A model generated the notes under the pieces. The model saw nothing but the letters and a program-made list of their open reading frames with translations. It ran no database searches and was not told the origin of the DNA. The translations under genes were made by a program, and so were the position numbers. Below are positions 12,234 through 64,000 of a stretch of DNA of 64,000 nucleotides, piece after piece (position 1 is the first letter of the stretch; each line of letters begins with the position of its first letter). Where the stretch lies: the NCBI RefSeq assembly GCF_023704175.1, contig NZ_CP084530.1:2970001-3034000 (forward strand), written 5' to 3'. The DNA is from Paenibacillus sp. YPG26. Lineage in GTDB: Bacteria > Bacillota > Bacilli > Paenibacillales > Paenibacillaceae.

Positions 12234-13292
12234 CTAGACTTGCACAGGGTTTGCAGCTGCCTTAGATGCGGTAAATGTCCGGCCGACAATCGGCGCCAGC
12301 TTCTCCAGATCCTGCAGAAGGCCAGCGAATTGATCCGGGAACAGAGACTGTACACCGTCCCCGGTCATCGAATTATCAGGATCTGTATGCATTTCGATAA
12401 TCAGGCCGTCCGCTCCAGCAGCTACGGAAGCCTTAGCCATCGGCTCCACCAATTCCCGTCTTCCCGTTCCGTGACTTGGATCCGAGATGACCGGCAGGTG
12501 GCTGAGCTGCTGCAGTACTGGAATTGCGGACAGATCTAGTGTATTCCGGGTGTAAGTCTCAAAGGTACGGATGCCCCGCTCGCACAGCATGACATCCGGG
12601 TTGCCACCCGCAAGAATGTATTCGGCCGCATTAAGCAGCTCATCATATGTCGCGCTGAATCCGCGCTTCAGCAGGACCGGACGGCCGCAGCTCCCCAGCT
12701 TCCGAAGCAGATCAAAGTTCTGCATATTCCGTGTTCCAATTTGGAGAATGTCGGCATATTCGGCACATACATCAACATATTCAGGTGTCATAACCTCCGT
12801 GATCGTCAGCAGGCCATGCTTCCTCCCTGCTTCGGCCATCATGATCAATCCTTCCACACCGACACCCTGGAAGCTGTACGGGCCGGTACGCGGCTTGAAT
12901 GCTCCTCCGCGCAGTACTTGGCCGCCGGCGGCCTTGACCAGGCGTGCGATTTCGTCAATCTGCTCCGGAGTCTCAACGGCACATGGCCCTCCCATAACAA
13001 CAAGCTCTCCTCCGCCGATTTTGACATCACCCATGGTGATAACTGTATTCTCCGGGTGGAAGTCGCGGCTGGCAAGCTTATAAGATTTGGAGATCTTGAC
13101 CACGTTCTCAACATCCTTCATCTGGCGCAGATGCTCTGCAAGCTTAGGTTCAATATGTCCAATCAAGCCAATTACGGTACGATCATTGCCGCGGGATACA
13201 TGCGCCTGCAGTCCCACATTCTCTATGACTGCGATAATCTCCTGGAGGCGCTCCTCGGGGGTCTGGTTAGAAATAATTACGATCATATTCAT
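12234..13292 (-). CDS. aroF: 3-deoxy-7-phosphoheptulonate synthase, type I-beta with regulatory N-domain
   Basis: A 352-residue DAHP synthase that joins PEP and erythrose 4-phosphate, the first step of the shikimate pathway. Residues 1-75 form a ferredoxin-like (ACT-like) domain as in the Thermotoga enzyme, where it mediates feedback inhibition by Tyr/Phe. The catalytic barrel follows, with [33 protein letters not shown], and the metal-binding SDPSHGTG and IIEMHTDP motifs. There is no fused chorismate mutase. The ATG 13292 has AGAGGA close upstream. It is monocistronic, with four AAAAGC-type 8-bp repeats 90-120 bp upstream of its start. Confidence 0.94.
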
Positions 13293-45324: not shown

Positions 45325-45549
45325 TCAAATCTTTAGTTCCCCAAGCTTAATCAGCTCGACTACTGCCTGTGCACGACCTTTGACGTTGAGTTTCTGCATG
45401 ACATTTGAGATGTGGTTACGCACCGTCTTCTCACTGATAAACAGCTGCCCGGCAATATCACGCGTCGTTTTATCCTGCACGAGCAGTTCGAAAACTTCCC
45501 GCTCACGATGTGTTAATAAAAACTTGCTGTTGCGATCGCTGCCCTTCAA
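45325..45549 (-). CDS. gerE: Spore coat transcription regulator GerE
   Basis: A 74-residue stand-alone LuxR-type helix-turn-helix protein, the same length as B. subtilis GerE and nearly identical through LLTHREREVFELLVQDKTT and FISEKTVRNHISNVMQKL. GerE acts last in the mother-cell cascade with sigma-K, switching spore-coat gene expression. The start is TTG with GGAGGGG 9 nt upstream. A sigma-K-type promoter lies 60-90 bp upstream, as expected. Confidence 0.96.
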   Translation of the reverse strand: MKGSDRNSKFLLTHREREVFELLVQDKTTRDIAGQLFISEKTVRNHISNVMQKLNVKGRAQAVVELIKLGELKI

Positions 45550-45609: not shown

Positions 45610-45637
45610 CATCTTATGAATGGCATAAGGAGAAGGT
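45610..45637 (-). promoter_or_regulatory. Sigma-K-type promoter of gerE
   Basis: Minus strand AC, 17 nt, CATAAGATG against the consensus AC-N15-17-CATANNNTA (last base differs). Confidence 0.6.
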
Positions 45638-50926: not shown

Positions 50927-52057
50927 TTAGCGTGTAGTCCCGCCTGAGAAGCCATTTCCCGGCTGAGGACCATTCCCGATGCCATTTGTGTTCCGCTGAG
51001 TCGGTGTATATCCACTCGGACCGGTCATGGTGCCTGTACGTGAAGGGAATATACGCTGGATCAACGTGCTGAAATCATTCTCTACGCCGCGAAGCAGCCC
51101 TCCTCCCGGAGACTGGGTTGCATAACCGCTGACGCGGGACACAAACTCAGGATGTCCAGAGATATGCACATTCTGGATATGCGGCGCGCTGGCCTTGATT
51201 TTGCCTTCAATCTCAATCTTTAACGATTGAGGAATCTGATCCAGCGGGCCGGTACCGTTCGTGCCAAAGCTGCCTTGCGTCCCATAAGTCCCGTAGGTTC
51301 CTGTGGTTCCCTGATTTCCTGTAGTCTGCCCGGGATGATTCGTATTCATCGTTCCGTTCCCGGTAGTTGTACCCATACCTCTGCTGTTCATGATGTTCCC
51401 GTTCATTCCGGTTGTATGGGTACCTCCGCCCCCAATTCCAGGAGCATAGCCGAAGCCTGTGCCCGCTGAGGATCTCGGACCGTTCCCTCCCCCGTAAGAG
51501 TAGTACGAGTTCCCCGAGATGCCTCCGTTCATGCCGCCATAATAGTCCGTGCCCAGGCTGGTTCCGGCTCCTCTGCCGTCAGCACCGTAGGTTCCATAAG
51601 TACGGGTACCGCCTGTTCCGGCTGAGCCGTAGGTTCCCCCTCTGGCTGCATCAAGAAGACTTCCGGCAACACCGGATCTTCCAATGCTGTGGCGAAGCCC
51701 ATCTGATCCATTGCGGTTGCCAGCACGTGGTGCGACACTCTTCGCATTATAGCCTGCGCCTGAGGTACCATGAGGCCCGTGAAGGGTCACGGCTACATAG
51801 GCGTCACGGTCCGTTACAAGCACTTGGGCGGATCTGATCTGGCCGAGCTGGGATACTTTTTTGCTCAATAGCGGGCTGTACTTGAGACCCGTAATCCGGT
51901 TATTCTGCACAGAGTTCAGATCATACCGATTCCCTGTCTTTGCATTCTGGGTACGAAAATCATTGTTATTCCCATTCCTGCCGCATCCTGTAAGACCGAC
52001 CAGACCAGCAACCAGGGCAGCCGATAACGTCAAGCTAACAACCTTACCTCCACGCAT
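50927..52057 (-). CDS. YhcN/YlaJ family sporulation lipoprotein with Gly/Thr-rich insert
   Basis: A 376-residue lipoprotein: signal peptide with lipobox LTGC (Cys25), a first YhcN/YlaJ part (RYDLNSVQNNRITGLKYSP...AQVLVTDRDAYVAVTLHG), then about 160 residues very rich in Gly, Thr, Asn and Tyr (many TGTYGTYG-, GNGTMN-like units), and a second YhcN/YlaJ part (IEIEGKIKASAPHIQNVHISGHPEFVSRVSGY). Family members are ~200 residues, so the insert nearly doubles it. ATG 52057 with GGGGGA is chosen over upstream ATGs. A perfect sigma-G-type promoter precedes it, so it is a forespore inner-membrane or cortex lipoprotein. Confidence 0.88.
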   Translation of the reverse strand: MRGGKVVSLTLSAALVAGLVGLTGCGRNGNNNDFRTQNAKTGNRYDLNSVQNNRITGLKYSPLLSKKVSQLGQIRSAQVLVTDRDAYVAVTLHGPHGTSGAGYNAKSVAPRAGNRNGSDGLRHSIGRSGVAGSLLDAARGGTYGSAGTGGTRTYGTYGADGRGAGTSLGTDYYGGMNGGISGNSYYSYGGGNGPRSSAGTGFGYAPGIGGGGTHTTGMNGNIMNSRGMGTTTGNGTMNTNHPGQTTGNQGTTGTYGTYGTQGSFGTNGTGPLDQIPQSLKIEIEGKIKASAPHIQNVHISGHPEFVSRVSGYATQSPGGGLLRGVENDFSTLIQRIFPSRTGTMTGPSGYTPTQRNTNGIGNGPQPGNGFSGGTTR

Positions 52058-52106
52058 GAATTCATCCCCCATCATCATTGTAGTAGAAATAATGACTAAC
52101 AAGGAT

Positions 52107-52136
52107 TAGAATGCGCCCTGCGCCCCGCGGGTATTC
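52107..52136 (-). promoter_or_regulatory. Sigma-G promoter of the YhcN/YlaJ lipoprotein
   Basis: Minus strand GAATA, 18 nt, CATTCTA; one mismatch from the CATACTA -10. Confidence 0.78.
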
Positions 52137-52181: not shown

Positions 52182-52210
52182 CACCATAATTAATAGGCTT
52201 TCATACCATA
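52182..52210 (+). promoter_or_regulatory. Sigma-K-type promoter of glycosyltransferase 52250
   Basis: AC, 17 nt, CATACCATA, an exact fit to AC-N15-17-CATANNNTA, 40 bp before the ATG. Confidence 0.65.
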
Positions 52211-52249
52211 TTCTAGTAACTCAAGAACCTCTGCGGAAGGATGAGCCTC

Positions 52250-53320
52250 ATGAAAATCTTGTTCGCGTTCTACGTACCGAGCGGGGGAGTTGAGACCTTG
52301 AACAGACTCCGGTGCGAAACCCTGCGTCAATATGGAGTTGAAGGACATCTGCTCTATACCAGCCCCGGTTCGGGGCTTCAAAATATTTCAAATACTCCAA
52401 CCTACGTCACCAATTATGATGAAGACATCTCGCAGATCCTGGAGGCCCAGAAGTTCGATGCCATTGTGGTCACTTCTGACTACTTGATGACCCAGCGGCT
52501 TCGGCGGCTTCATTTCCCCGGACCCATTATATTTGAAGCGCAAGGATTCGGAACCATGGAGCAGGCCCACCGGTTAGTCCAGGATGCCTCTTCCTACCTG
52601 CAGTCTTACTGCCAGGCTGTGCTCCTCCCTCCTACCTCCCACCTCATTGAACTGTTCAATCAGGTATGCCCTTGGCTGCGTCAGTTCATTATGCTGAACA
52701 TGGTGGACACCTCGGTATTTCATCCCCACGAAGTCGGGGCACCTCCCCGTCCTATCCTGGGATGGGTAGGAAGGCTGGAGAAGAACAAGAATTGGACCGA
52801 GTATTTGACTATCGGCCACCGTCTCTCGCAGCTCATACCTGATCTTGAGCTGCACATGCTCACAGACGAGACGCTGGCTGCACCCGAAGAGCAGCACCGA
52901 TTCAAGAAATGGGTGGCTAACTGGAATTTGACCCACCGCTTGCAAACCGTGTCTAATGTACCGCACAGCCAAATGCCCATCCAGTATTCGAGGGTCGCCG
53001 CTTCAGGAGGGTTCCTCCTATCCACCTCCATGGTGGAGGGATTCGGTTATGCCGTGGCTGAAGCGATTGCCTGCGGCTGCCCGGTGGTAAGTACGGATTC
53101 CGATGGAGTAAGGTTATTTATTAAGCATAATCAGACCGGTAAATTCTACAGTCTCGGAAATATCGATCAGGCTGTCAATGAAGGACTGGATGTAATGCGC
53201 AATCTTCCGTTAAGGCAGTATATACGCGAACAGGGCATCCGGCTTATCACCGAATCTTTTGCCCCCGCTAAATATGCGGAAGCGTTCATCCATATGATGA
53301 ACTCCCTTGATGTGAGTTAG
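52250..53320 (+). CDS. GT4-type glycosyltransferase
   Basis: A 356-residue GT-B-fold glycosyltransferase: MKILFAFYVPSGGVETLN (acceptor-domain glycine loop), linker, ILGWVGRLEKNKNW (start of the nucleotide-sugar half), and EGFGYAVAEAIACGCPVVSTDSDGV (retaining-transferase Glu-x7-Glu). ATG 52250 sits 9 nt from GGAAGG; the ATG at 52241 abuts the Shine-Dalgarno. It resembles the spore-coat CotSA-like and capsule transferases; the sugar cannot be told. Monocistronic, sigma-K-type promoter, divergent from a spore lipoprotein. Confidence 0.87.
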   Translation: MKILFAFYVPSGGVETLNRLRCETLRQYGVEGHLLYTSPGSGLQNISNTPTYVTNYDEDISQILEAQKFDAIVVTSDYLMTQRLRRLHFPGPIIFEAQGFGTMEQAHRLVQDASSYLQSYCQAVLLPPTSHLIELFNQVCPWLRQFIMLNMVDTSVFHPHEVGAPPRPILGWVGRLEKNKNWTEYLTIGHRLSQLIPDLELHMLTDETLAAPEEQHRFKKWVANWNLTHRLQTVSNVPHSQMPIQYSRVAASGGFLLSTSMVEGFGYAVAEAIACGCPVVSTDSDGVRLFIKHNQTGKFYSLGNIDQAVNEGLDVMRNLPLRQYIREQGIRLITESFAPAKYAEAFIHMMNSLDVS

Positions 53321-53398
53321 TCTGATCGTGACCTGAACTTATAATGCGCCCAAGTGTGTCCTGCCCTCAGGTTCACAGCAGGTCCTAAGCCAAGGATT

Positions 53399-53445
53399 AA
53401 AAGCCAGACCTGGCGGGCAGATCACCCTTGCCTGGTCCGGCTTTC
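53399..53445 (-). terminator. Terminator of the 53462 gene
   Basis: Minus strand AAAGCCGGACC / GGTCTGGCTTT with one mismatch, then TTAAT; it lies between converging genes. Confidence 0.65.
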
Positions 53446-53461
53446 TGCTCTGTCACTCATG

Positions 53462-53812
53462 CTAGTCTGCCAGCTTGTGCAGCTGATGTTCACTTAGTAT
53501 ACCGATCACAACCCCATATTCATTCTTCAGATACATTCTAATTACACAATGCCCGGGTGTGAACCGGTTCGTTACAATCCGCAGCTGCATGGGTTCCTGG
53601 TAGATCCCGACATTTTGAATCAGAGCACTTCCATCAGGTGAATTGGCAGGACCTATCCGGTAGAGAAATCTGAACAGTTCATTCCTGGTATCCTGCGCAT
53701 CCAAGTAGACCTCATACGTCTGTACTCCAGAGTTCGCGATAACAATATCCATCAGATGAATGGTGAAGCCTTCAAGCAGACTCCTGTTCATCGTAAAGGT
53801 GTAGTAAGCCAC
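53462..53812 (-). CDS. Unrecognised 116-residue beta-rich protein
   Basis: No family recognised. GTG 53812 is chosen as start because GGGGGAGG lies 4-5 nt upstream; the frame is open further to 53848. The product is soluble, beta-rich, without Cys-rich or membrane segments (AYYTFTMNRSLLEGF, QTYEVYLDAQDTRNELF, CVIRMYLKNEYGVVIG). It is alone, flanked by two glycosyltransferase genes and preceded by a sigma-K-like promoter divergent from that of 53982. A spore-surface structural or carbohydrate-binding protein is possible (inference from context). Confidence 0.65.
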   Translation of the reverse strand: MAYYTFTMNRSLLEGFTIHLMDIVIANSGVQTYEVYLDAQDTRNELFRFLYRIGPANSPDGSALIQNVGIYQEPMQLRIVTNRFTPGHCVIRMYLKNEYGVVIGILSEHQLHKLAD

Positions 53813-53831
53813 CGTACCTCCCCCTTTGTGA

Positions 53832-53858
53832 CAGTATATGATGATCATCCAGGTCAGT
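53832..53858 (-). promoter_or_regulatory. Sigma-K-like promoter of the 53462 gene
   Basis: Minus strand AC, 16 nt, CATATACTG; one mismatch to CATANNNTA. Confidence 0.5.
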
Positions 53859-53916
53859 TTGGACCCCGGCGGACAAGAGGGCAGCCAAGCCGGCGCCCTT
53901 TTTGCTCCCGGTCTCG

Positions 53917-53944
53917 TACCTTGAGACGACCGCTACATAAAATA
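53917..53944 (+). promoter_or_regulatory. Sigma-K-type promoter of glycosyltransferase 53982
   Basis: AC at 53918, 16 nt, CATAAAATA, an exact consensus fit, 37 bp before the ATG. Confidence 0.65.
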
Positions 53945-53981
53945 AACAAGATACCCCTTTAAGCGCAGAGGAGGCTTCATC

Positions 53982-55205
53982 ATGAAAATATTGCTCGTGA
54001 CCTATTGGTGGTTAACAAGCATGGGCGGGATTCGCACCTACATGAATCAACTCGCAGACCGTCTGAGAACTCACGGGCATGAAGTGGACCTGATGGGGAC
54101 TGACCTCGCCACGAACTCCGTCTATGTGGCGGGAGGGGACCGCCGGTTCTACAAAGACCCGGTTCTTCCCCTGATCCGCCGGAATCTTGCGGGCGCGCCG
54201 CTTCCTCAGCTTCATGCTTGTCCTGAGGCTATGGCCATCGAAAGTGACCGGTATGCGTTCGAGATGGGCGCCGCTGTTCTTGGCGTGAATCATTATGACT
54301 TGATCCATGCCCAGGACCCTATCGCGGCTCTCTGTATTAGAAGAATACTGCGCAGACCGGTTCCTCTGCTTGTCAGCTTCCACGGCTCCCTGGCAAGGGA
54401 AGGCTATCATGACTCCCGTTCTGTCCATCCCGGTCTCACCTGGACTGAATTTCGCGCAGGCACCTATGGCAAGCACTACAGTGCACTGGAATACCTTGGG
54501 GCAGAGGCTTCAGATCTTGTGCTTGTCAGCTCCAGTTGGATCAAGGGGCTCATTGTAGAGTCCGGAATTCCTGAGTGGAAGCTCCGCCAGGTGCCTTACG
54601 GAGTAGATATACATGCATTTCTGGCCAAGGCAGCCGCAGAATTCCCCAAAGCCAAAAAGCCTGACAAGAAGCTCATCATGTATACGGGACGGCTTGAATA
54701 TGTGAAGGGTGTCCACATACTTATAGAAGCTCTTGGGCTTCTAAGCCGAACCCGGAGCGATTGGAACTGCTGGATTATCGGGGATGGCGGTATGCTTGCG
54801 AAGCTCCGTAATCGCTGTCATGAGCTTGGAATTGACCAGGATGTGGAGTTCCTGGGCAAGATGGATAATATCCCCTCAGCACTGGGGAAGGCGGACATCT
54901 ATGTTCAGCCAAGCCTACAGGACACCCAGCCATTCTCGCTGACCGAAGCGCAGCTTGCCGGAGTTCCATCTATCGCTGCGAATGCTACAGGAATGCCCGA
55001 AATGATCCGGGAGGGTGTGACCGGATTATTATTCGCTCCCGAGGACCCCGCTTCCCTGAGCGCTCAGCTCAGCCGCCTGCTCAGCAGTCCCGCGGAGCGC
55101 AGCTCGCTTGGATATCAAGCCCGCCAGTGGGTGCTCGCTAACCGCACGCTCGCCCAGATGTATCAGGGAACCTGGTGGGTCTATCAGGAACTGACAGGAG
55201 GTTAA
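53982..55205 (+). CDS. GT4 glycosyltransferase
   Basis: A 407-residue GT4 transferase with both Rossmann halves: MKILLVTYWWLTSMGGIRTY, HAQDPIAALCIRR, LLVSFHGS, RQVPYGVDIHAF, MYTGRLEYVKGVHILIEAL, and the sugar-nucleotide motif DTQPFSLTEAQLAGVPSIAANATGMPEM. GAGGAGG precedes the ATG. A 53-codon ORF follows after 9 nt. Acceptor and donor are unknown. Confidence 0.92.
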   Translation: MKILLVTYWWLTSMGGIRTYMNQLADRLRTHGHEVDLMGTDLATNSVYVAGGDRRFYKDPVLPLIRRNLAGAPLPQLHACPEAMAIESDRYAFEMGAAVLGVNHYDLIHAQDPIAALCIRRILRRPVPLLVSFHGSLAREGYHDSRSVHPGLTWTEFRAGTYGKHYSALEYLGAEASDLVLVSSSWIKGLIVESGIPEWKLRQVPYGVDIHAFLAKAAAEFPKAKKPDKKLIMYTGRLEYVKGVHILIEALGLLSRTRSDWNCWIIGDGGMLAKLRNRCHELGIDQDVEFLGKMDNIPSALGKADIYVQPSLQDTQPFSLTEAQLAGVPSIAANATGMPEMIREGVTGLLFAPEDPASLSAQLSRLLSSPAERSSLGYQARQWVLANRTLAQMYQGTWWVYQELTGG

Positions 55206-55214
55206 GGACAACGA

Positions 55215-55376
55215 ATGGAACTTAAGGTGCCTAGTGACTTGTATAACGCGTGGTTTCTGTATCCTGCCGGATCATCGGGGATGGAAGTGGATTATTTCAT
55301 ATTGAATACCATCATGGAGAGCCTGCCGGACAACTATGTCATCCCCGATCCGAAGGTGATGAGCCGGATCGAATAG
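55215..55376 (+). CDS. 53-residue ORF after the GT4 gene
   Basis: ATG 55215, 9 nt after the glycosyltransferase stop, with AAGGA 7 nt upstream. The acidic product starts MELKVPSDLYNAWFLYPAG, then SSGMEVDYFILNTIMESL and PDNYVIPDPKVMSRIE. It is not recognised; no membrane segment. It may be a genuine small partner of the transferase or the start of a truncated gene. A terminator follows 64 nt later. Confidence 0.5.
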   Translation: MELKVPSDLYNAWFLYPAGSSGMEVDYFILNTIMESLPDNYVIPDPKVMSRIE

Positions 55377-55440
55377 AAGCTGAGGAAGATAAGCAGGCTT
55401 ACATCCCGGAGTGCCGCTTCAGCGTCACCCGCACACAAAC

Positions 55441-55480
55441 AGCCGCAATCACGACCTGAATTCAGGTCATGATTGCGGCT
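55441..55480. terminator. Bidirectional terminator palindrome
   Basis: AGCCGCAATCA-GACCTGAA and its near-perfect complement form a 40-bp palindrome; GTTGTT/TGTTTG follow on either side. It ends the 53982 unit and the long minus-strand glycan operon. Confidence 0.8.
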
Positions 55481-55484
55481 GTTG

Positions 55485-56525
55485 TTATATTTGGCGCCAG
55501 AGGATCTTGTTCACTGCCTGCTGAAAGGCCTTCACACTGCGCTCCCAGGTGTACTCATAAGACACCCGCTCACCTTCTTGCGCCAAAGACTTCCGGAGAA
55601 CGGGGTCTTCAATTAACCGGATTACATCCTTCGCCAGACGGTTCTCGTACCGGTAAGACATCAAGCAATTCCGCTCATGTCTCCCATACTTCAAGTTCCC
55701 GCCCGAGTACACCGTGACAAGCGCAGCGCCGCACCGCATAGCCTCCAGGCCTGGAAGCGATCCCGCATCGTACGTGCCTGAGCTTACGAATATATCCGTG
55801 TGATTATAATGATAACGCAGCTCGGTATCATTGGCAGGAGTCAGAATCCGGTACCTTCCGGTATCCCGCAGCCCCTGCAGGTTAGGGGATTCCCGGAACT
55901 CATTGGGAGGGCAGATTAGATTGATAATCACTTCAGGATGAAGCGCCTGAACCAGGTTCAGCTGGGAGATTAAGTAATCCTGCTCACGGTGCCAGGAGAA
56001 TTCACTCTCGATCCTCCGCAGAATGGCGGATATATTCAGAGGCTCCGCAATCTGCTCCCGGATCTTGAGATTCTGGAAATAAGAGCTGACGCCTATCGGC
56101 ACAATATGGCCCTTGACCCCGTGCAGAAGCTGAACTAGATCCTGCTGCCATTCGGAGAGTACCAGCAGATTATTGGTCATATGATAAGTGGGGAAGGAGA
56201 GATGATTGTCGTAGAGGAATGCCGGTTCATAGCATAGGGAGAGCCGGATATGAACTCCCTTGCCCATCTCGCTTGCGGTCTGGGAACAGGCTACAGTTGT
56301 GAAGAAATTGGATACGATGACATCCCCTTGAGGGAAGTCTTCCGCATATAAGTCCATATTTGCCGTCTGGATAATATGCGCGTGAACCTCATACTCTACC
56401 ACACCCTGCCTGGGCATAAGAATGGTCACCTCATGGCCAAGTCCGATAAGCCCGTTCGTAATCTCTGCCAGCATCCGCTGAGCCCCGCCATGACATAACG
56501 TTACAATTGGAAATGTGAACTTCAT
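55485..56525 (-). CDS. GT4-type glycosyltransferase (last gene of the glycan operon)
   Basis: A 346-residue GT-B-fold transferase: FPIVTLCHGGAQRMLAEITNGL (N-terminal glycine-rich motif), HIVPIGVSSYF, and GTYDAGSLPGLEAMRCGAALVTVYSGG (C-terminal donor motif, with Glu of E-x7-type region modified). Overlaps the upstream GT2 gene by 4 nt. A DxD motif is absent, as usual for GT4. Confidence 0.85.
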   Translation of the reverse strand: MKFTFPIVTLCHGGAQRMLAEITNGLIGLGHEVTILMPRQGVVEYEVHAHIIQTANMDLYAEDFPQGDVIVSNFFTTVACSQTASEMGKGVHIRLSLCYEPAFLYDNHLSFPTYHMTNNLLVLSEWQQDLVQLLHGVKGHIVPIGVSSYFQNLKIREQIAEPLNISAILRRIESEFSWHREQDYLISQLNLVQALHPEVIINLICPPNEFRESPNLQGLRDTGRYRILTPANDTELRYHYNHTDIFVSSGTYDAGSLPGLEAMRCGAALVTVYSGGNLKYGRHERNCLMSYRYENRLAKDVIRLIEDPVLRKSLAQEGERVSYEYTWERSVKAFQQAVNKILWRQI

Positions 56526-57244
56526 CCCTGGCCCCTCTCTTTCTCAATCAAGGTTCGCAGGGAACTGCCGTATTTGCCCTGGATGACCAGCATATCCTGC
56601 TGAATCTCATCCCAGTGGTTCAGTGTCCCCATCGTGCCATGTACACGGTACTCAAGCAGGCATTCATCCAGATAGTGAAAATCGAAATACTGCAGCAGCC
56701 GAAGCCAAAGATCATAGTCATGCGTATAACGGCGCTGTTCATCAAACATTCCGATGCGTTCAAAAATATACATATGCAGCAGGATACTGCACCCATTGAC
56801 AGGACACCCGCTGAGCAGGGTCTCGTAGAATTCCTTCTTGGTCGTAAAATTGGCGTGGATCTCCCCCGTCCGGCTTCCGGCGGCATTAATATAATAATAG
56901 GCGGTATGGCTTGCAATCGAGCCTATTCTGTCCATGTGGGCAAGCTGCCGTTCAAGCTTCTCCGGAACAAAGCGGTCATCCGCGCTGAGCCAGGCAAAGT
57001 ACTCGCCGGTGGACTTTGAGATGCCATAATTCAAGGCGCTGGCCGTGCCTCCATTCGGCTTGTAGAAATAACGAATCTTATCCTTATAGGGTTCGACCAG
57101 ATGCTGGTACTGCGTAGAGCCGTCATCCACCACAATAACCTCAATGTTGCTGTAAGTCTGGGCAAGTGCGCTGGTGATGGCCTGATCGACATATTCGCAG
57201 TTATAGAATGGGATCACGATCGACACTTTAGGTTGAGCATTCAT
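56522..57244 (-). CDS. GT2 family glycosyltransferase
   Basis: A 240-residue GT-A transferase: KVSIVIPFYNCEYVDQAI, VVDDGSTQYQ, GGTASALNYGI, WLSADDRFVPEKL (DxD-like ADD), and the acceptor loop YTHDYDLWLRL. It is closely related to the 57920 gene, so the two arose by duplication. ATG 57244 (MNAQPKVSIV) is chosen to match that paralogue's MNPKVSIL start. No membrane segment; it acts in the cytoplasm. Confidence 0.9.
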   Translation of the reverse strand: MNAQPKVSIVIPFYNCEYVDQAITSALAQTYSNIEVIVVDDGSTQYQHLVEPYKDKIRYFYKPNGGTASALNYGISKSTGEYFAWLSADDRFVPEKLERQLAHMDRIGSIASHTAYYYINAAGSRTGEIHANFTTKKEFYETLLSGCPVNGCSILLHMYIFERIGMFDEQRRYTHDYDLWLRLLQYFDFHYLDECLLEYRVHGTMGTLNHWDEIQQDMLVIQGKYGSSLRTLIEKERGQG

Positions 57245-57279
57245 GTCATGCACCACTTTCCCGCTATGTTTTACTGATT

Positions 57280-57867
57280 TCAGTCCTTACCCGTCAGCTG
57301 CTTCCAGGCAAAGATCGCATCAACAGGCGGATGATCCACCCCGTAGGCCTCCACAAATGAAGGGTTCTCCGCGTGATGGAAATTCTTGAACACCTTCACG
57401 TTATATCCGAGCTCAAGCAATTCGCCGCTCTCCCAGCCGCTATAATGCTTTTGATATTCCTCACCGCTGAGGCCGTAGTTATCTACCCCCTCCTGGGGGA
57501 AGAACCCCCGCGGCGTGAATATGATGACCTGATCTCTTGCAATGCTCTCCGCACTCTTCAGAACATGAAGCCCATCCTTTTTCGTAAAATGCTCCAGGGA
57601 ATCAATCAGTGTCACTGCAGAAACAGAGCGCGGCATGAACAGCTCACCTATCCGCCTGGCGTCCGCATGTATCGGAACAGCCCGGCGCGGAAGATGAATC
57701 AGATGCTCCAGGTAGGCCCGGTGAATATCGATGCCAATGATGATCTTGCTGTCGTAATGCTCCCACATGGCGCCTATTCCGCAGCCGATATCCAGCACGC
57801 TGTCAGCGAACCTCAGCCGCTCACGGAGTGCCGATATAAAGCGGGGCTCTTCAGTCTCCTCATACAT
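57280..57867 (-). CDS. Class I SAM-dependent methyltransferase
   Basis: A 195-residue methyltransferase: SVLDIGCGIGAMWEHYDSK (motif I), IGIDIHRAYLEHL (acidic loop), VTLIDSLEHF (motif IV), and a YNVKVFKNFHHAENPSF segment near the end. ATG 57867 with GGGGGAG is chosen; the longer frame overlaps the upstream gene. In the glycan operon it probably methylates a sugar, or modifies a lipid-linked or nucleotide-linked intermediate. Confidence 0.85.
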   Translation of the reverse strand: MYEETEEPRFISALRERLRFADSVLDIGCGIGAMWEHYDSKIIIGIDIHRAYLEHLIHLPRRAVPIHADARRIGELFMPRSVSAVTLIDSLEHFTKKDGLHVLKSAESIARDQVIIFTPRGFFPQEGVDNYGLSGEEYQKHYSGWESGELLELGYNVKVFKNFHHAENPSFVEAYGVDHPPVDAIFAWKQLTGKD

Positions 57868-57919
57868 TAGAATCTCCCCCTCTTGGCTTAGTCCGTCATC
57901 CACAACTGAAGAGTCAGGC

Positions 57920-58636
57920 TTAGGCCGGCGTAACGGAGATGAGGTGCTTAAGCTGCTCTGAATAGCGGGCACGGACAACCCCGATCTCCTCGGCAATGAC
58001 CGCGCTATGACGAACTGTACCCATCCCGGTGTGCCAGCGGTACGCAGTCAGATTCTCATTCAAGTAGGGCAGTGACAATCCCGCCAGCACAGCCCGCATC
58101 CAATACTCATAATCATGCGTATAGGTCAGACTCTCATCGAACAGACCGAGCTGGCTGAACAGATCCCGGCGGGCCATCACGGTACACCCATTGACCGGGT
58201 TGCTGTGAAGAAAGCTGCTGTAGAGCTGATGAGGTGTAAGCGGCTCACCCCCTGCCCCGTGGCGGGTGACGGACCCATGCTGGTTAATATAATTGAAGTT
58301 GGTGAATGAGATCGAGGCCCCCGTCATCTTCATGAACTGAACCTGATGCTTGATTTTATTTCTGTAGAACAGATCGTCCGAGCTCAGCCAGGCAATATAC
58401 TCTCCCGATGCGTGCTGAATGCCGTGATTGAGCGCCGTTGCCGTGCCCCCGTTGGCCTTGCCCAGATAATAGACCTGCTTCATGTAAGGCTTGATCAGCC
58501 TGGTATAGCTGGTAGAGCCGTCATCCACCACGATAATCTCGAGACGATCATAGGTCTGCTTCAAGGCGCTCTTGATCGCCTGTGCAATATAAGGACAGTT
58601 ATAAAAAGGAATCAGGATGGATACCTTTGGATTCAC
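57920..58636 (-). CDS. GT2 family glycosyltransferase (paralogue of 56522)
   Basis: A 238-residue GT-A transferase: KVSILIPFYNCPYIAQAI, VVDDGSTSYT, GGTATALNHGI, WLSSDDLFYRNKI, YTHDYEYWMRAVLA. GTG 58636 overlaps the upstream stop as GTGA and yields MNPKVSILIPF. The pair with 56522 suggests two successive additions of a similar sugar in one repeat unit (inference). Confidence 0.9.
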   Translation of the reverse strand: MNPKVSILIPFYNCPYIAQAIKSALKQTYDRLEIIVVDDGSTSYTRLIKPYMKQVYYLGKANGGTATALNHGIQHASGEYIAWLSSDDLFYRNKIKHQVQFMKMTGASISFTNFNYINQHGSVTRHGAGGEPLTPHQLYSSFLHSNPVNGCTVMARRDLFSQLGLFDESLTYTHDYEYWMRAVLAGLSLPYLNENLTAYRWHTGMGTVRHSAVIAEEIGVVRARYSEQLKHLISVTPA

Positions 58637-59544
58637 AGCCACTCCGCCCTTTCTGCCCGGTAATATTCCAGGATATCACGCAGAGACATCTCCCAGGTAT
58701 ACTTCGGCTCCCAGCCCAGTTCCCTTAGACGCACGGGCTGTACAGCTTCTTCAGCCCCGCTTGCCGGGGCATCACCGGCTTCAATAGCAATATTGGCAGT
58801 CGATAACGACGCATACAGCTGTGCCACTTCACCAAGTGTGCGCTCAAGACCCGAGCATACCGGGGTAACACTTCCGGTCTCTCCATGCCGAAGAAGCACC
58901 TCATATGCCGCAACGGCATCCCGGACATCCAGGAAGTCTCTGCGTTCTTCTGCAGAGGACAGATGAAAAGGCTTCTGCTCCTCCCCCTGTTCTTCATTCA
59001 CGATATACTTGGCGAGCAGCGCGCATATCCCTGTGGAAGGGCCCGGTCCTATCAAATTGCCAGGTTCGGCGACCAGCACGTCTTGATGGAACAGCTTCCC
59101 CCAAGACAAAGCCGTCACTTCTTGTACCGATTTGCTAAGCGCGTAAGGATGTGTCGGGGCGAGCGGCCCGCTGAGCGCGAACTTGAGCCGGGAACCGGCG
59201 ACAAGGATACGGCTTGAGCAGCCGGATTCCCGCAGCGCCTGAAGGAGATACAAGCTTCCCATGATGTTGCTCTCCATGTACAGCAGGGGTTCCCCCCAGG
59301 ATTCCGGCACAGAATTCTTGCCGCCCAAATGCAGAACATACCTGGGCTTAACCCGCTTGACCAGCTCCCGAACCTGCTCCCTGCGGGTAAGATCACAGCT
59401 AATATACTCGACGCCCGGCTCGCTATACTTTGCCGCATTGCGGACGGCCGCCGCGACATGGTAGCCCTTGGCGACAAAGTAACGACAAGCGTGACGGCCG
59501 GTGAATCCGGCCGCGCCTGTGATAAGAACATTAATTTGGCTCAT
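58633..59544 (-). CDS. NAD-dependent epimerase/dehydratase (RMD-like)
   Basis: A 303-residue short-chain dehydrogenase of the extended type: GAAGFTGRHACRYF (Rossmann), HLGGKNSVPESWGEP, and HPYALSKS, the YxxxK catalytic pair. Its closest look is to GDP-6-deoxy-4-keto-mannose reductases (RMD), but substrate specificity cannot be read from sequence. It overlaps the preceding RmlD-like gene by 14 nt in a different frame. Confidence 0.82.
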   Translation of the reverse strand: MSQINVLITGAAGFTGRHACRYFVAKGYHVAAAVRNAAKYSEPGVEYISCDLTRREQVRELVKRVKPRYVLHLGGKNSVPESWGEPLLYMESNIMGSLYLLQALRESGCSSRILVAGSRLKFALSGPLAPTHPYALSKSVQEVTALSWGKLFHQDVLVAEPGNLIGPGPSTGICALLAKYIVNEEQGEEQKPFHLSSAEERRDFLDVRDAVAAYEVLLRHGETGSVTPVCSGLERTLGEVAQLYASLSTANIAIEAGDAPASGAEEAVQPVRLRELGWEPKYTWEMSLRDILEYYRAERAEWL

Positions 59545-60367
59545 ACTGACTCATCCATTCTGCAAGCTCCCGCAGCATGACCGGATAGGCAGGAAGCTTA
59601 AATTTGACATCAGCGCGGGTGGATACCAAGGTTCGGTCAAGTTCCGGTTCATCAGTAGGGACAATGCGGACATCCGGCTTATTCCAGATCTCCTTGAACA
59701 TGTGCAGCAGCTCATACTTGCTGACTGTGTCCGGATGGGCCAGATGAATAAGACCCGATAGCTCCGAATCCAGTGAGGCATCTATCACTTTAGCCAGTTG
59801 GAGCGTGGTGACTCCGTTCCACAGCACACGCCGGTAGCCTGACACATCTCCTGTCTGGCTCAGGAACCATCCGAGGAGACCGATCCCCGAGGGGCGGATC
59901 TCCGGCCCGATGATCGAGGTCCGGATGGTCAGATGGCCTTGGCACCGGATCTCTCCAAGCGCCTTCGTGATGGCATAAGAGGAAGTCCCGTCGGGCTCCT
60001 CTTCCTCTGTATATTTGCCGCGGGTGCCCTGAAAGACACAATCGGTGCTGATATGAATCAGCCGGGCGTTGATGGATTCAGCCGCGCGCCACAGCCGGTG
60101 CGGCAGGAAGCCATTGACGTGGTAAGCCCCGATTTTGTCCGCCTCTGCAGCCTGGTTCAATACCCCCACCGCGTTAATGATGACTTCCGGCCGCACGATC
60201 TCCACCGCCTTCTCCACGGTGGTTAGGTCGTTCACATCCAGAACGAGGCCCTGCGGGTCCTGAGGATTCCGGGTTGTATAGAACACCTGATGCTTACCCT
60301 GCTCCATGAAGTAGCGGACCAGCAGATGACCGGCCATCCCGCTGCCGCCAAATATGAGCAGCTTCAT
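59531..60367 (-). CDS. RmlD-like nucleotide-sugar 4-reductase, no cupin domain
   Basis: A 278-residue SDR: GGSGMAGHLLVRYF, HISTDCVFQGTRGKYTE, SSYAITKALGE (YxxxK). It resembles dTDP-4-keto-rhamnose reductase RmlD. CapF/WbjC, its usual position-mate in UDP-L-FucNAc operons, carries an extra C-terminal cupin domain and is about 370 residues; this one stops at the reductase domain, as WbvR-type enzymes of UDP-L-QuiNAc synthesis do. It overlaps the dehydratase by ATGA. Confidence 0.82.
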   Translation of the reverse strand: MKLLIFGGSGMAGHLLVRYFMEQGKHQVFYTTRNPQDPQGLVLDVNDLTTVEKAVEIVRPEVIINAVGVLNQAAEADKIGAYHVNGFLPHRLWRAAESINARLIHISTDCVFQGTRGKYTEEEEPDGTSSYAITKALGEIRCQGHLTIRTSIIGPEIRPSGIGLLGWFLSQTGDVSGYRRVLWNGVTTLQLAKVIDASLDSELSGLIHLAHPDTVSKYELLHMFKEIWNKPDVRIVPTDEPELDRTLVSTRADVKFKLPAYPVMLRELAEWMSQYEPN

Positions 60368-61350
60368 GACAAGAAACCTCCTCGGATGAGGATGTCTTTA
60401 ATCTCCTCTTTGGTCATCAGATTCTTCTCGGAGCTGAAGCTGGAGAAGGATACCTTGGGGCAATGCTGATAATATTCTTTCAGATCCGGAATATTCAGGG
60501 TAGGGAGAATGACCAGATATTCTTCGTCATAGACAACTGTGGTCTGACTTTCGAAGTCACTCATAAGAATTTCGTGAATTTTCTCACCTGGACGGGTTCC
60601 AGTCTCAATAATCTCCACATCCTCCCTGCCCGAAGCTTCGATCAGCACCTCGGCGAGATCAACGATTTTGCAGGTCGGCATGGTCATTACAAATATTTCG
60701 CCACCAAGGCTCTCTACGGAAGCTTTGAACAGAAGCTTGATGGCATCAGGCAGGGTAAGAAAGAACCGGGTCATCTTCAAATCCGTGATTCGGACCTGTC
60801 TCTTCTGCTCAATCTGGTTCGTGAATAAATGAACAACGCTTCCGTTCGTCCCAAGCACGTTGCCGCCCCGGACACAGACGAACTTCGTGCGTGTAGGAAG
60901 CAGGTTCGCATAGACAATGAGCTTCTCCCCGATAGCCTTGGTCATTCCATAGAAATTGGACGGATTGGCCGCCTTGTCGGTGGAAATATAGATCACTTTC
61001 TTCACTTCATTCTCCATTGCGGCATCAATCACATTCTGAGTGCCGATAACATTTGTCTTCAGCGCTTCATAAGGCTGGTCTTCACAGACCGGTACATGCT
61101 TGAGCGCAGCTAGATGGAAGACATAATCAACATTTTTGCAGGCTGCTGTCAGCGCCTCCTTATCCCTGATATCACCGATCCGGAAGGTCAACCGGTCATC
61201 TTCAAAAGCGCGGCTCATGGCTACCTGGGTTGATTCACTTCTCGAGTAGATAATGATCTCTTTGGGCTGCTGGGGGAGCAGCTGCCTGATCAACTCATAC
61301 CCCCAAGAGCCGGTCCCGCCAGTGACTAATATGACTTGATTATTAAACAT
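60364..61350 (-). CDS. UDP-GlcNAc 4,6-dehydratase, CapE/FnlA family
   Basis: A 328-residue SDR of the CapD-type polysaccharide-biosynthesis family: VILVTGGTGSWGYELIR, HLAALKHVPVCEDQP, YISTDKAANPSNFYGMTKAIGE, and RPGEKIHE. Where S. aureus CapE-type enzymes carry Met-x3-Lys, this protein has the classic Tyr-x3-Lys (YGMTK), as PseB does. It turns UDP-GlcNAc into a 4-keto-6-deoxy sugar, probably with C5 inversion. ATG 61350 with GGAGGG inside the end of the upstream gene. Confidence 0.87.
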   Translation of the reverse strand: MFNNQVILVTGGTGSWGYELIRQLLPQQPKEIIIYSRSESTQVAMSRAFEDDRLTFRIGDIRDKEALTAACKNVDYVFHLAALKHVPVCEDQPYEALKTNVIGTQNVIDAAMENEVKKVIYISTDKAANPSNFYGMTKAIGEKLIVYANLLPTRTKFVCVRGGNVLGTNGSVVHLFTNQIEQKRQVRITDLKMTRFFLTLPDAIKLLFKASVESLGGEIFVMTMPTCKIVDLAEVLIEASGREDVEIIETGTRPGEKIHEILMSDFESQTTVVYDEEYLVILPTLNIPDLKEYYQHCPKVSFSSFSSEKNLMTKEEIKDILIRGGFLS

Positions 61351-62434
61351 GCTGTTTCCCTCCAAGCAAGAATTTAACTACCTTCTCCGAGACGTGATCT
61401 GCCAAATAGCCTTCTGGACATTCCCAATTCCGGTCCATCTCCGTCATCAGCCTTACCGAATCCGCGATGCGCTCCGCATGCAGCCCCGAGATAATGTTGC
61501 TGCCGCAGTCGACAGTCTCGGGACGTTCTGTGGTCTTGCGAAGTGTCACTGTCGGCACATGCATAATGCAGCACTCCTCCTGTACAGTACCGCTGTCCGT
61601 CAGCGCGCACATGGCATACCGCTCCAAATGAACAAAATCAAAGAATCCAAAGGGCTCATGAAATTCAACAAGCGGGTTCATCTGCAGCGTGAAATCCTTC
61701 GCTATACGTGACTTGGTTCTGGGATGCAGACTGCAGATTAGCCGGCGGCCGTAGACTTCGGCCACTTTATTAAGACCCTTCATAATTTCAAGCAGATGCT
61801 CCGGACGGTCCACATTCTCTGCCCGGTGGGTGGTAACCAGGAAGTATTCTCCGGGCTTAACATTCAATCTTGCCAGAATATCACTGGCCAGTATCTGCGA
61901 TTCGTAGTGCTTCATGACCTCATAAATGGGGTTGCCCGTCAGCACAATCCGGTTGCTGGGCACTCCCTCCTGGACCAAATGCCGCTTGCTCTGCTCGGTG
62001 TAGGGCATGTTGATGGTAGAGATGGCATCGATCACCTTGCGGTTCTTCTCTTCGGGCACATCAAGATCAAAGCACCTGTTGCCTGCTTCCATATGCACGA
62101 CCGGAATTCCCATACGCTCTGCGAGGATCGCGCATAAGGCACTGTTCGTATCTCCCAGCAGCAGCACCTTATCAGGCTTCTCCTTCTCCAGAATCGCTTC
62201 GGCCTGCAGGAACATGGCGGAGAGCTGTCCGCCGAGGGAAGCCTGCCGATCCTGCAGCACATAATCAGGAGAACGCAGACCGAGCTGGGTGAAGAAAATC
62301 CCGCTCAGACTCGAAGTGAAGTTCTGACCCGTATGCACGAGAATATGCTTGTCGGCATATCGGTCGAGCATGGGAATAATCAGACTTAGCCGAATGATTT
62401 CTGGACGTGTTCCCAGAATCGTCATTATCCTCAT
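61343..62434 (-). CDS. UDP-GlcNAc/UDP-hexosamine 2-epimerase (WecB/CapG/FnlC type)
   Basis: A 363-residue non-hydrolysing 2-epimerase: GTRPEIIRLS, HTGQNFTSSLSG, LLGDTNSALCAI, HMEAGNRCFDLDVPEE, TTHRAENVD, LTDSGTVQEE. In operons with CapE and a reductase it makes the final C2 inversion to UDP-L-FucNAc or UDP-L-QuiNAc; a WecB-type ManNAc function is the alternative. First gene of the nucleotide-sugar block; AAAGGAG precedes the ATG. Confidence 0.9.
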   Translation of the reverse strand: MRIMTILGTRPEIIRLSLIIPMLDRYADKHILVHTGQNFTSSLSGIFFTQLGLRSPDYVLQDRQASLGGQLSAMFLQAEAILEKEKPDKVLLLGDTNSALCAILAERMGIPVVHMEAGNRCFDLDVPEEKNRKVIDAISTINMPYTEQSKRHLVQEGVPSNRIVLTGNPIYEVMKHYESQILASDILARLNVKPGEYFLVTTHRAENVDRPEHLLEIMKGLNKVAEVYGRRLICSLHPRTKSRIAKDFTLQMNPLVEFHEPFGFFDFVHLERYAMCALTDSGTVQEECCIMHVPTVTLRKTTERPETVDCGSNIISGLHAERIADSVRLMTEMDRNWECPEGYLADHVSEKVVKFLLGGKQHV

Positions 62435-62538
62435 GTGCTCCGCTCCTTTCTATGATTTTGAGCTTGTAGTTAAGGGAGCAGCTCCAATAAATACATCCTG
62501 TTGGATGGTTCCCACAGCCTCCCGCTCTTCCGGCTGAA

Positions 62539-64000
62539 TCAAGCCGTCTTTCTGGACCGCTTCCTATGCTTATGGGCGCCAGACAGACTCCTCCGTCTGC
62601 TTCTTGAACGCTTGTGATCCGCTGCCTTGGCCGACCGGCCCGCCTTGGATTTTCTTCGGGGTGTCTCTCTGAGTGCAGCTCTCCTCCGCTTCGCCCGCAG
62701 AATTCTGCTCTTCCCTTCATGTCTTCGGTTGTGCCCGGGCCGGCTGCGCTTTCTCTTCCTGTGTCTGCGTATAGACTTGGCTGAATGCTTGGAATGCCCA
62801 TCCCCTGCGCGATTCGGCCCCGCGGCTTCCGCCGCTGCCGGCTTAACCGGGATACAGCGCAGCCCCCTTGTATCTTCTTCCAGTCGAATCAGCTCCGGAT
62901 GCTGCAGAGACCACTGAACCAACAGCTGCCTCAGTCTCTCTTCATAGGTCTGGGGGCCATAAGCTTCATTCACCCGCTGCAGATTCATAGCTGCCGTTCC
63001 GGCTGCAAGCACTGAATCACCAAGCAGGAGCTGCACCCGGCCGGCTAGCTCATGAACATTCCCCGGTTCTGCCAGCAGATACCCGCAGCCCGCTGTCTCC
63101 AGAATTTCCTGAAGCCCGCCAGAAGCGTAAGCAACCACCGGCTTCCCGTAGATCATAGCCTCAAGGGCTGTTAATCCGAATCCTTCAGGCACGAGACTCG
63201 GCACAACCACAATGTCCATCGCAGAGTAAGCAGCTTCTACCGATTCCTCGAAGACCACAAAGGTGAAGCGGTCCTTATAAGCCGAGACATTCACTTTGGA
63301 CAGACATCTCGCGTAGAAATCCTGGTCTATTATCCTTCCAATCACCAGGAAATGGACACTCTTATCGCTATTGCATATGGACAGTGCCATATCTATGAAA
63401 TGCTCCAGACCCTTCTCCTTCGTCAAAAAAGAAGATATATATCCAATCACACGGTGATCTGGACGGAGCCCAAGCTCCGACCGCTTGCCTTCGCGGATCT
63501 GCTCCCACTGCTGCGGATGGACCGACGCAGGATCCCAAGAGGGGAATAGAATCCCTACCTTCGGGGCTGCCGCCGTACCTTGGAATACGGTGACCGCGGA
63601 TTCGGAAATGCCTGTGATCCACGTGCTGTACTTGTCAATCAAGCCCACAGCCAGGGGGGTGTATTCGTTGATGGTGATACTCTCTGTGATATTCCAGACT
63701 ACCGGGATACCTAGAGAGGAGGCTGCCATCGCAGGCAGAACATTGACACAGGTGTTGACCAGGACAAGATCAGGCTGCTCGGCACGAATCATCTCGGCTA
63801 ATTTCTTCAACCCAGGTCCGCTTCTCAGCCGTTCCGCGTCAGTATACAGATTGGCTGATGGGGTATACATTTCGTGAAGCAGCGGGTAAGCGTGTATTCT
63901 GGTTCTGATTCCTATTTGTCTGGCCCGCTTGGTCAGCTGTCCCTCCTGCGGGGCAGCCAGAACACAATCGAAGTAGGTAGACAGCTTCTGGCACAATAAC
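62539..64000 (-). CDS. GT4 glycosyltransferase with protamine-like basic C-terminal tail (5'-truncated)
   Basis: About 487 residues are visible; the frame runs off the window edge (in frame from 63999), so the N-terminus is missing. Residues 1-~380 are a GT4 transferase: LVNTCVNVLPAMAASSLGIPVVW, VIGYISSFLTKEKGLEHFI, and PEGFGLTALEAMIYGKPVVAYASGG. The last ~100 residues (about 62540-62840) are almost wholly Arg, Lys, Ser, His, Gly and Ala (IRRHRKRKRSRPGHNRR, HKRSRSRRRSLSGAHKHRK), a protamine/CotG-like tail absent from ordinary transferases. It may bind nucleic acid, anionic polymer or be phosphorylated in the spore coat. Confidence 0.85.
   Translation of the reverse strand, partial: LLCQKLSTYFDCVLAAPQEGQLTKRARQIGIRTRIHAYPLLHEMYTPSANLYTDAERLRSGPGLKKLAEMIRAEQPDLVLVNTCVNVLPAMAASSLGIPVVWNITESITINEYTPLAVGLIDKYSTWITGISESAVTVFQGTAAAPKVGILFPSWDPASVHPQQWEQIREGKRSELGLRPDHRVIGYISSFLTKEKGLEHFIDMALSICNSDKSVHFLVIGRIIDQDFYARCLSKVNVSAYKDRFTFVVFEESVEAAYSAMDIVVVPSLVPEGFGLTALEAMIYGKPVVAYASGGLQEILETAGCGYLLAEPGNVHELAGRVQLLLGDSVLAAGTAAMNLQRVNEAYGPQTYEERLRQLLVQWSLQHPELIRLEEDTRGLRCIPVKPAAAEAAGPNRAGDGHSKHSAKSIRRHRKRKRSRPGHNRRHEGKSRILRAKRRRAALRETPRRKSKAGRSAKAADHKRSRSRRRSLSGAHKHRKRSRKTA

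Follow-up and report, generated by a model that had tools for sequence, protein, structure and literature searches.

Glycans on the surface of bacterial spores set their adhesion and hydrophilicity, and the cge genes of Bacillus subtilis (cgeAB and cgeCDE), whose CgeB product we take to be a DUF3880-type protein, are under late mother-cell control. The biosynthesis of such glycans has been worked out mainly in Bacillus; PMC7439481 names spsM, sps, yfn, ytd/ytc and cge as B. subtilis spore surface genes and describes legionaminic acid as needed for crust assembly. Here we describe a locus of approximately 26 kb in Paenibacillus sp. YPG26, the left half of which (52182-64000) lies in a 64,000-nucleotide stretch referred to as the window (C1:2970001-3034000 of a single-contig 3.97-Mb genome). 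The locus extends 14 kb beyond the window to a YheC/D gene; the next 36 kb were analyzed as well, with window coordinates continued past 64000, and gene names such as gtA, dufC, gtD, orf53, sm1 and argQ are our own coinages. We consider it probable that this locus constitutes a late-sporulation, SigK-type, soluble spore-surface glycosylation system of Paenibacillales that combines a conserved core with a species-variable cassette, and spore-surface glycosylation is its likely function.

Control by SigK and a spore-surface glycan as product are supported by the sequence because footprinted promoters mark the heads of operons but not internal genes, because two marker genes are absent from a genus without SigE and SigK, because the enzymes are soluble and no export family was found, and because the neighbors belong to spore families (CgeB-type proteins, YheC/D, the YhcN lipoprotein). 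An initial annotation of the window had proposed a sigma-K-driven spore-surface glycan of the crust that differs from those of cge and sps. The core of that proposal is well supported at the sequence level, and its remaining parts are corrected below. No paper on this locus or on the sm1-sm3-argQ set was found in the open-access literature searched.

Comparison with described systems

The locus has in common with B. subtilis cgeAB-cgeCDE proteins that join DUF3880 to Glyco_trans_1_2, both domains scoring above cut-off in cgeB1 and cgeB2, whereas here two CgeB-type genes stand in tandem inside a large operon that also encodes sm1-sm3, argQ and sugar-nucleotide enzymes. This genome has two occurrences of DUF3880, neither of them outside the locus, and among 14 control genomes the domain was found in B. 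subtilis only. With the sps operon, which serves legionaminic acid and rhamnose, the locus shares RmlA and RmlB homologues and a GT2 enzyme distantly related to SpsA; in contrast to sps, it carries a PseB-like/RmlD-like/WecB-like set, and a NeuB-type (SpsE) gene is missing from the part of the locus covered by the family scan. The sole NeuB-family match of the genome is weak (39 bits; window 12282-12842, minus strand) and possibly belongs to a DAHP synthase-type enzyme. The proposed difference from cge and sps needs correction in that the operon itself includes two CgeB-type proteins, encoded just outside the window. The term crust is unsupported, as a search that was limited to CotZ among crust proteins gave no PF10612 match in this genome while detecting the B. 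subtilis positive control.

Two further comparisons concern composition and repeats. The basic coat proteins CotG and CotB, which are associated with the CotH kinase, likewise have low-complexity Lys/Arg-rich regions, and CotH is encoded in this genome; here, however, glycosyltransferases carry a fused basic region as well, and CotH lies 1.1 Mb away. A CotG-like composition was found in argQ (78 of 78 orthologues), but not a CotG-like neighbor of CotH, since no open reading frame (ORF) of at least 100 residues in the surrounding 16 kb exceeds 30% Lys+Arg in a 40-residue window. The Deca-GX3 adaptors (Yae1/Lto1, FliH) share a GX3-type repeat with the locus and give sub-threshold profile matches to argQ (Yae1_N, 8.7e-5; FliH, 8e-5), whereas the repeat here is shorter and attached to glycosyltransferases. 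With respect to the spore surface more generally, yhcN and cotH are listed among spore-coat genes in PMC3533761, and according to PMC11952670 the spores of one Paenibacillus isolate bear F-ENA-2a-like fibres.

SigK-type promoters at operon heads

The SigK-type consensus scanned was AC-N16/17-CATANNNTA. Its raw counts were rejected as evidence because the consensus is not enriched overall: 7 exact sites were found in 100 kb versus approximately 6 expected (a rough estimate assuming equal base composition), and CATANNNTA occurs 17 times in the window versus a shuffle mean of 21. Position and conservation were used instead, and what is non-random about the predicted sites is their placement at operon heads together with their conservation among relatives. 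The three promoters previously assigned to this consensus, those of gtA, dufC and gtD, are upheld, two being exact and one having a single mismatch (Table 1). The gerE promoter that had been noted nearby was located as well, as was the predicted SigG/F-type site of the flanking lipoprotein (GAATA-N18-CATTCTA at 52107-52136), one of 3 matches to GNATR-N17/18-CATNNTA in the 100 kb scanned. Moreover, the promoter of the main operon had been expected beyond the window, which was borne out: the main operon promoters are likely those upstream of the small gene sm1 (69.4 kb) and of a GT2 gene, gtW (75.6 kb).

Conservation was assessed in the 220 bp upstream of positionally assigned genes from up to 11 genomes, allowing one mismatch at most, with shuffled sequences and internal genes as controls. 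(Counting the best hit per genome admitted non-syntenic paralogues of gtD, gtX and RmlB, also of gtI and others; positional assignment was used instead and gave the same picture.) SigK-type matches were present upstream of gtA and sm1 in 10 of 11 genomes each (shuffle means 2.7 and 0.8), of gtD in 5 of 6 (1.0), of dufC in 4 of 5 (1.1), of gtW and gtX in 7 of 10 each (1.5 and 0.7) and of yheCD in 6 of 10 (1.5); gerE had a match in 5 of 5 (0.4) and yhcN in 4 of 10 (1.8). No internal match was found for gtF, gtG or RmlB (0/5 each), gtI, nadJ, the WecB-like gene, gtR or gtV (0/10 each) or gtU (0/9), while gtN, cgeB2 and RmlA had one each in 10 genomes, cgeB1 had 2/10 (shuffle mean 1.5) and argQ 3/10 (1.2).

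The same pattern was sought in loci of named relatives, for which 199 stretches encoding an sm2 relative were found and the best 80 kept. A SigK-type promoter precedes sm1 in 70 of 78 upstream regions, 23 of them exact (shuffle mean 4.2, maximum 7; opposite strand 9/78). Of the 15 genes scanned besides sm1, gtW and gtX, none exceeded the shuffle maximum except the WecB-like gene (8/50; mean 1.7, maximum 5) and sm2 (5/80; mean 1.9, maximum 4). One-mismatch hits taken alone are weak, because in a first gtA scan the opposite strand matched nearly as often (12/30) as the forward strand (15/30 at one mismatch or less; shuffle mean 5.8). Given that the operon heads carry SigK-type promoter sequences, a late switch-on in the mother cell is predicted.

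Small proteins, basic tails and a shared motif

A new feature of the locus is the conserved quartet formed by the small genes sm1-sm3 and the basic argQ. The loci were picked by sm2, with 10-kb flanks that partly clip the outer genes, and among the 66 of 80 that remained after 14 shorter ones had been dropped, sm1, sm2 and argQ were each present in 66, sm3 in 64, cgeB1 in 56, gtW in 55, gtN in 49, gtI in 44 and gtR in 41. Net charges in this genome are −11, −7 and −4 for sm1, sm2 and sm3, +33, +30 and +34 for argQ, gtN and gtV, and −2, −6 and −9 for gtR, cgeB1 and cgeB2. The predicted structure of sm2 is a long helical hairpin with a disordered tail (predicted local distance difference test score, pLDDT, 73.9); its precomputed family number is PF26595. 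Public databases frequently list relatives of sm2 (L001:8711-9058) as 'restriction endonuclease subunit S', a label supported neither by the helical-hairpin model nor by the locus.

Also new are the Arg/Lys-rich tails of argQ and some glycosyltransferases, and a GX3-type motif nearly confined to argQ and three transferase types. A 40-residue window with at least 40% Lys+Arg is present in 78 of 78 argQ and 49 of 51 gtN orthologues, in 22/64 for gtV, 5/63 for gtW, 3/48 for gtR, 1/52 for cgeB2 and 1/78 for sm3, and the remaining 13 proteins tested have no such window; within the 100-kb neighborhood only argQ, gtN and gtV reach this level among 95 ORFs. The gtN tail has drifted in all five relatives compared, strongly in three (identity 59, 26, 25, 32 and 40%, versus 82, 66, 59, 46 and 51% in the enzyme domain), and yet holds 29-42% Lys+Arg. 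In argQ the basic region varies (29-90% identity) and the GX3 region is kept (66-94%).

Specifically, the motif G[YFWH]xxG[YFW]xxG was found in argQ (78/78), gtR (44/48), cgeB2 (41/52) and cgeB1 (34/61). Of 1541 ORFs in the 80 loci, 187 carry it; 169 of these belong to the four families, sm3 and gtU account for one each, and 16 are unassigned. All but one of the unassigned carriers (15) lie directly upstream of gtR, are GT-D-like (PF22882, E 3e-70 or better) and show a basic N-terminal part that precedes the motif; the remaining one is a transport permease. We read the motif as a module common to argQ and four transferase families of three types. In Yae1-Lto1, according to PMC4523923, a GX3 repeat facilitates complex formation, and by analogy we infer a complex-forming role for the GX3-type stretch here too.

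In the mechanism that we propose, the GX3-type stretches of argQ, gtR, cgeB1, cgeB2 and, in relatives, the GT-D transferase would form helices that pair with one another, and the acidic sm1-sm3 together with the strongly basic tails would hold a multi-enzyme complex on the coat around the forespore. The complex is the least certain part of the mechanism. In such a 'spore glycosome' of Paenibacillales, argQ and the acidic helical proteins sm1-sm3 would gather on the forespore coat GT2, CgeB-type and GT-D transferases with a common GX3 pairing helix, several bearing polycationic tails, and a swappable cassette would change the acceptor protein and the sugars from species to species; we put this arrangement forward tentatively, as possible rather than probable. 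Alternatively, the basic tails could serve to bind polyanions of the mother cell, such as nucleic acid, and be unrelated to coat docking, as their composition is like that of generic polycations and they have no known partner; we regard this as rather unlikely. Docking of the transferases on the coat would offer a testable way of gathering soluble glycosyltransferases on the growing spore coat. The locus as a whole would provide a role for proteins now mislabelled 'restriction endonuclease subunit S', and with it spore formers of a large group would have their own late-sporulation glycan system.

SigK and SigE

SigE and SigK have the −10 CATA core in common, which raises the question of whether the earlier mother-cell factor SigE, acting at the engulfment or cortex stage, controls the locus instead. 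For a footprint, 33 non-redundant sm1 promoters were drawn from the 76 of 80 regions with CATANNNTR and aligned on the −10, which is fixed by this selection. At the SigK −35 position A is found in 88% and C in 82%, the spacer is variable, and among positions free of selection the G before the −10 is conserved in 100% and the G inside it in 97%. AC stands at N16 or N17 in 29 of the 33, the SigE-type ATA in 1 of 33, and judged by these bases the sm1 −35 is of the SigK type and not of the SigE type. Control by SigE is also at odds with the nearby gerE promoters, which have the same form in all five genomes, and we consider it improbable, even though one site has been treated as fitting either factor (PMC4191935) and two genomes, G044 and G051, have sm2 with a SigE-level match only.

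A genus of the same family provides a natural control for SigK dependence of the locus. Sm2 was found in 329 of 392 genomes of the order Paenibacillales, and a sample of the class yielded it in 6 of 101 genomes, each of them from the window's own family. Twenty of the 63 sm2-negative genomes of the order were examined, and 12 of them belong to this genus, g20, which may be Saccharibacillus. Their best SigK-model match reaches approximately 68-70 bits, the level of other sigma factors, while the other eight have SigE or SigK at 260 bits or more. No CgeB2 orthologue was found in the 12 g20 genomes, two weak hits of 36-41 bits not being counted as orthologues, while 6 of the 8 with SigK or SigE keep one at 424 bits or more. 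Both marker genes are thus absent where SigE/SigK-level matches are absent, in 12 of 12 g20 genomes. For the host genus, PMC12826061 reports that 100% of the surveyed Paenibacillus genomes have SigE, F, G and K. As a side observation, sigK appears to be in two separate pieces, resembling a skin-type element, in G228, G040, G041, G050, G248 and G052.

Proposed sugar pathway, and export

The sugars themselves can be sketched from the enzyme families. Among structures, the best matches of the PseB-like enzyme are PseB (2gn4) and those of CapE type, and the enzyme falls under the NCBIfam cut-offs of both PseB and FnlA. Together with the RmlD-like reductase and the WecB-like 2-epimerase it would convert UDP-GlcNAc to a 6-deoxy-L-HexNAc donor; a product of the L-FucNAc, L-QuiNAc or L-RhaNAc type would follow from established pathways. 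The RmlD-like enzyme of the locus is probably not a dTDP-rhamnose reductase, as RmlC and a protein read from its sequence as RmlD type sit next to each other at 0.92 Mb, and these two would supply a dTDP-6-deoxyhexose along with RmlA and RmlB. Soluble GT2, GT4 and CgeB-type transferases would attach these sugars directly, within the cytosol of the mother cell, to an acceptor of the spore surface, for which reason no flippase would be needed.

With respect to export, the genes scanned through YheC/D gave no match to families of flippases, polymerases, ABC exporters or lipid-linked sugar transferases; wzx/wzy upstream of 64000, named in advance as a sign of a plain polysaccharide or S-layer operon, were thus not encountered. 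A 19-residue hydropathy scan gave no value of 1.9 or more in the listed cluster proteins from gtA to YheC/D, none of which is membrane-embedded by this measure, while outside the cluster the flanking lipoprotein reached 1.95 and a major facilitator superfamily transporter 2.47. A vegetative operon for exopolysaccharide, capsule or S-layer glycan is a very improbable reading of the locus: its enzyme types overlap those of capsule loci (CapE-like, WecB-like, RmlA/B), but the lack of export families among the genes scanned and of membrane-embedded proteins by hydropathy, the SigK-type promoters and the absence of sm2 and CgeB2 orthologues in the genus without SigE/SigK all speak against it.

Several observations weigh against the assignment to a SigK-driven, soluble spore-surface system. 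In this genome the sm1 site is not exact (its last A is replaced by G), and the yheCD upstream region has no SigK-type site at one mismatch or less. In the named loci, the gtW site is incompletely present (33/63; shuffle mean 5.2, maximum 8), and gtX has 7/26 (mean 1.4, maximum 4) with 8 on the opposite strand. Tails are weaker in many orthologues of gtV and gtW, of which 22/64 and 5/63 reach 40% Lys+Arg. SigK or SigE is present in eight of the 20 sm2-negative genomes examined, which makes sm2 dispensable for sporulation as such; two of these eight, G162 and G222, with SigK and SigE-level matches, have neither sm2 nor a CgeB2 orthologue, and in the sm2 carriers G044 and G051 no SigK match exceeds the cut-off. 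Finally, when 14 gene families from the named loci were scanned for hydropathy, a hydrophobic stretch of 1.9 or more was seen in 10 of 51 gtN orthologues and 1 of 63 gtU, so that a membrane-associated segment in gtN of some species is possible.

Conserved core and variable cassette

The conserved core is flanked by a cassette that varies among species, a further new feature. Gene-by-gene synteny was followed by protein matches in eight same-genus and two same-order genomes. In the eight, the locus sits between nagA/yhcN and YheC/D, and the core order is gtI, nadJ, RmlD-like, PseB-like, WecB-like, gtN, cgeB2, cgeB1, argQ, sm3-sm1, gtR, RmlA, gtU, gtV, gtW; gtI is missing in G018. G036 is rearranged, and G053 is covered over 20 kb only. 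The suggested search for the same gene order in other Paenibacillus genomes succeeded, both here and in the named loci, the relatives in which are Paenibacillus; the closest of the best 80 is that of P. zeisoli (sm2 identity 91%). In G018 (L073-L075), approximately 17 kb with a response-regulator-like gene and, by sequence look, apparent sugar-transport genes separate cgeB1 from argQ.

Between gtA and gtI the cassette differs among species. The arrangement dufC-gtD-orf53-gtF-gtG-mtH is found in G000, G027, G017 and G002 and is only partly kept in G018. An alternative in G022, G012, G035 and G033 (families scanned in G022 only, the others assigned from protein starts) comprises a GT2, a second PseB-like gene, a UDP-sugar dehydrogenase, a CgeB-like transferase and a 135-residue protein, with an extra putative rhamnosyltransferase in G022 and G012. 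Among 23 relatives of the 135-residue protein, two are named by their sources as 'Exosporium leader peptide' (P0132) and 'BclA C-terminal domain' (P0145), the remainder being unnamed, uncharacterized or hypothetical. The swappable gtA-gtI cassette, with a small protein and transferases of its own, may diversify the terminal sugars, and the core-plus-cassette layout would explain different spore surfaces among related species.

The 116-residue protein of the present cassette, dufC, has no Pfam or NCBIfam match, and only 3 such proteins, one being this genome's own, were found in a 5.8-billion database. Its predicted structure is a low-confidence all-beta model (pLDDT 57.5). The best PDB matches, all above E 0.001, are TM1070 and weaker ones including Anabaena sensory rhodopsin transducer. 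Identification of dufC as an Ena or BclA-like protein was rejected given the low model confidence and zero PDB matches below E 0.001, and no fold was assigned.

Gene content and coordinates

The gene list previously given for 52182-64000, namely six glycosyltransferases, one methyltransferase, four nucleotide-sugar enzymes (58633-62434), a 116-residue protein and a 53-residue ORF, was confirmed in full by ORF and family scans (Table 1). Beyond the window lie two CgeB-type proteins, RmlA/RmlB and five more glycosyltransferases.

Table 1. Genes and predicted promoter sites of the locus and its surroundings in window coordinates
Feature	Position	Strand	Basis
gerE	45325-45549	-	PF00196 E 3e-23
SigK-type promoter of gerE	45610-45637	-	one mismatch
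YhcN/YlaJ-type sporulation lipoprotein, flanks locus	50927-52102	-	PF09580 (Pfam) E 6e-15
SigK-type promoter of gtA	52183-52210	+	exact
gtA, GT4-type glycosyltransferase, locus left edge	52241-53320	+	PF00534 E 4e-20; relatives and cluster context
dufC, 116 residues, family unassigned	53462-53812	-	GTG start behind GGAGG-type ribosome site
SigK-type promoter of dufC	53832-53858	-	one mismatch
SigK-type promoter of gtD	53918-53944	+	exact
gtD, GT4 glycosyltransferase	53982-55205	+	PF00534 E 7e-39
orf53, conserved 53-residue protein	55215-55376	+	counterparts in four relatives, 43-91% identity; zero Pfam matches
gtF, GT4-type glycosyltransferase, variable cassette	55485-56525	-	PF00534 E 2e-9
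gtG, GT2 glycosyltransferase, variable cassette	56522-57256	-	PF00535 E 3e-31
mtH, S-adenosylmethionine methyltransferase, variable cassette	57280-57867	-	PF13649 E 1.8e-6; start codon inferred
gtI, GT2 glycosyltransferase, core	57920-58642	-	PF00535 E 6e-30; weak SpsA-structure match E 8e-8
nadJ, NAD-dependent sugar epimerase/dehydratase	58633-59544	-	PF01370 E 2e-39
RmlD-like reductase	59531-60367	-	PF04321 E 2e-25
PseB/CapE-like UDP-GlcNAc 4,6-dehydratase	60364-61350	-	NCBIfam PseB 318.6 bits (cut-off 407.75); PDB 2gn4 E 6e-72
WecB-like UDP-GlcNAc 2-epimerase	61343-62434	-	NCBIfam TIGR00236 258.8 bits (cut-off 210.15)
gtN, GT4 glycosyltransferase	62539-64086 (window end cuts at 64000)	-	PF13692 E 1e-23; Arg/Lys-rich C-terminal tail ~62542-62874
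cgeB2	64173-65309	-	DUF3880 + Glyco_trans_1_2
cgeB1	65365-66459	-	DUF3880 + Glyco_trans_1_2
argQ	68031-68408	-	
sm3, sm2, sm1	68409-69370	-	
Candidate SigK-type site of sm1	69425-69452		one mismatch
gtR, GT2	69500-70891	-	
RmlB and RmlA	71089-72806	-	
gtU, gtV, gtW, GT2	72840-75525	-	
Candidate SigK-type site of gtW	75565-75591		exact
gtX, GT4	75791-76969	-	
SigK-type site of gtX	77004-77031		one mismatch
YheC/D ATP-grasp gene, locus right edge	77157-78245	+	

In this genome the minus-strand operon is interrupted between argQ and cgeB1 by a Phd-like/HicA toxin-antitoxin pair on the opposite strand (67170-67812). Beside this pair, within a palindromic AT-rich stretch, lies an exact SigK-type site (67119-67146) that points to cgeB1.

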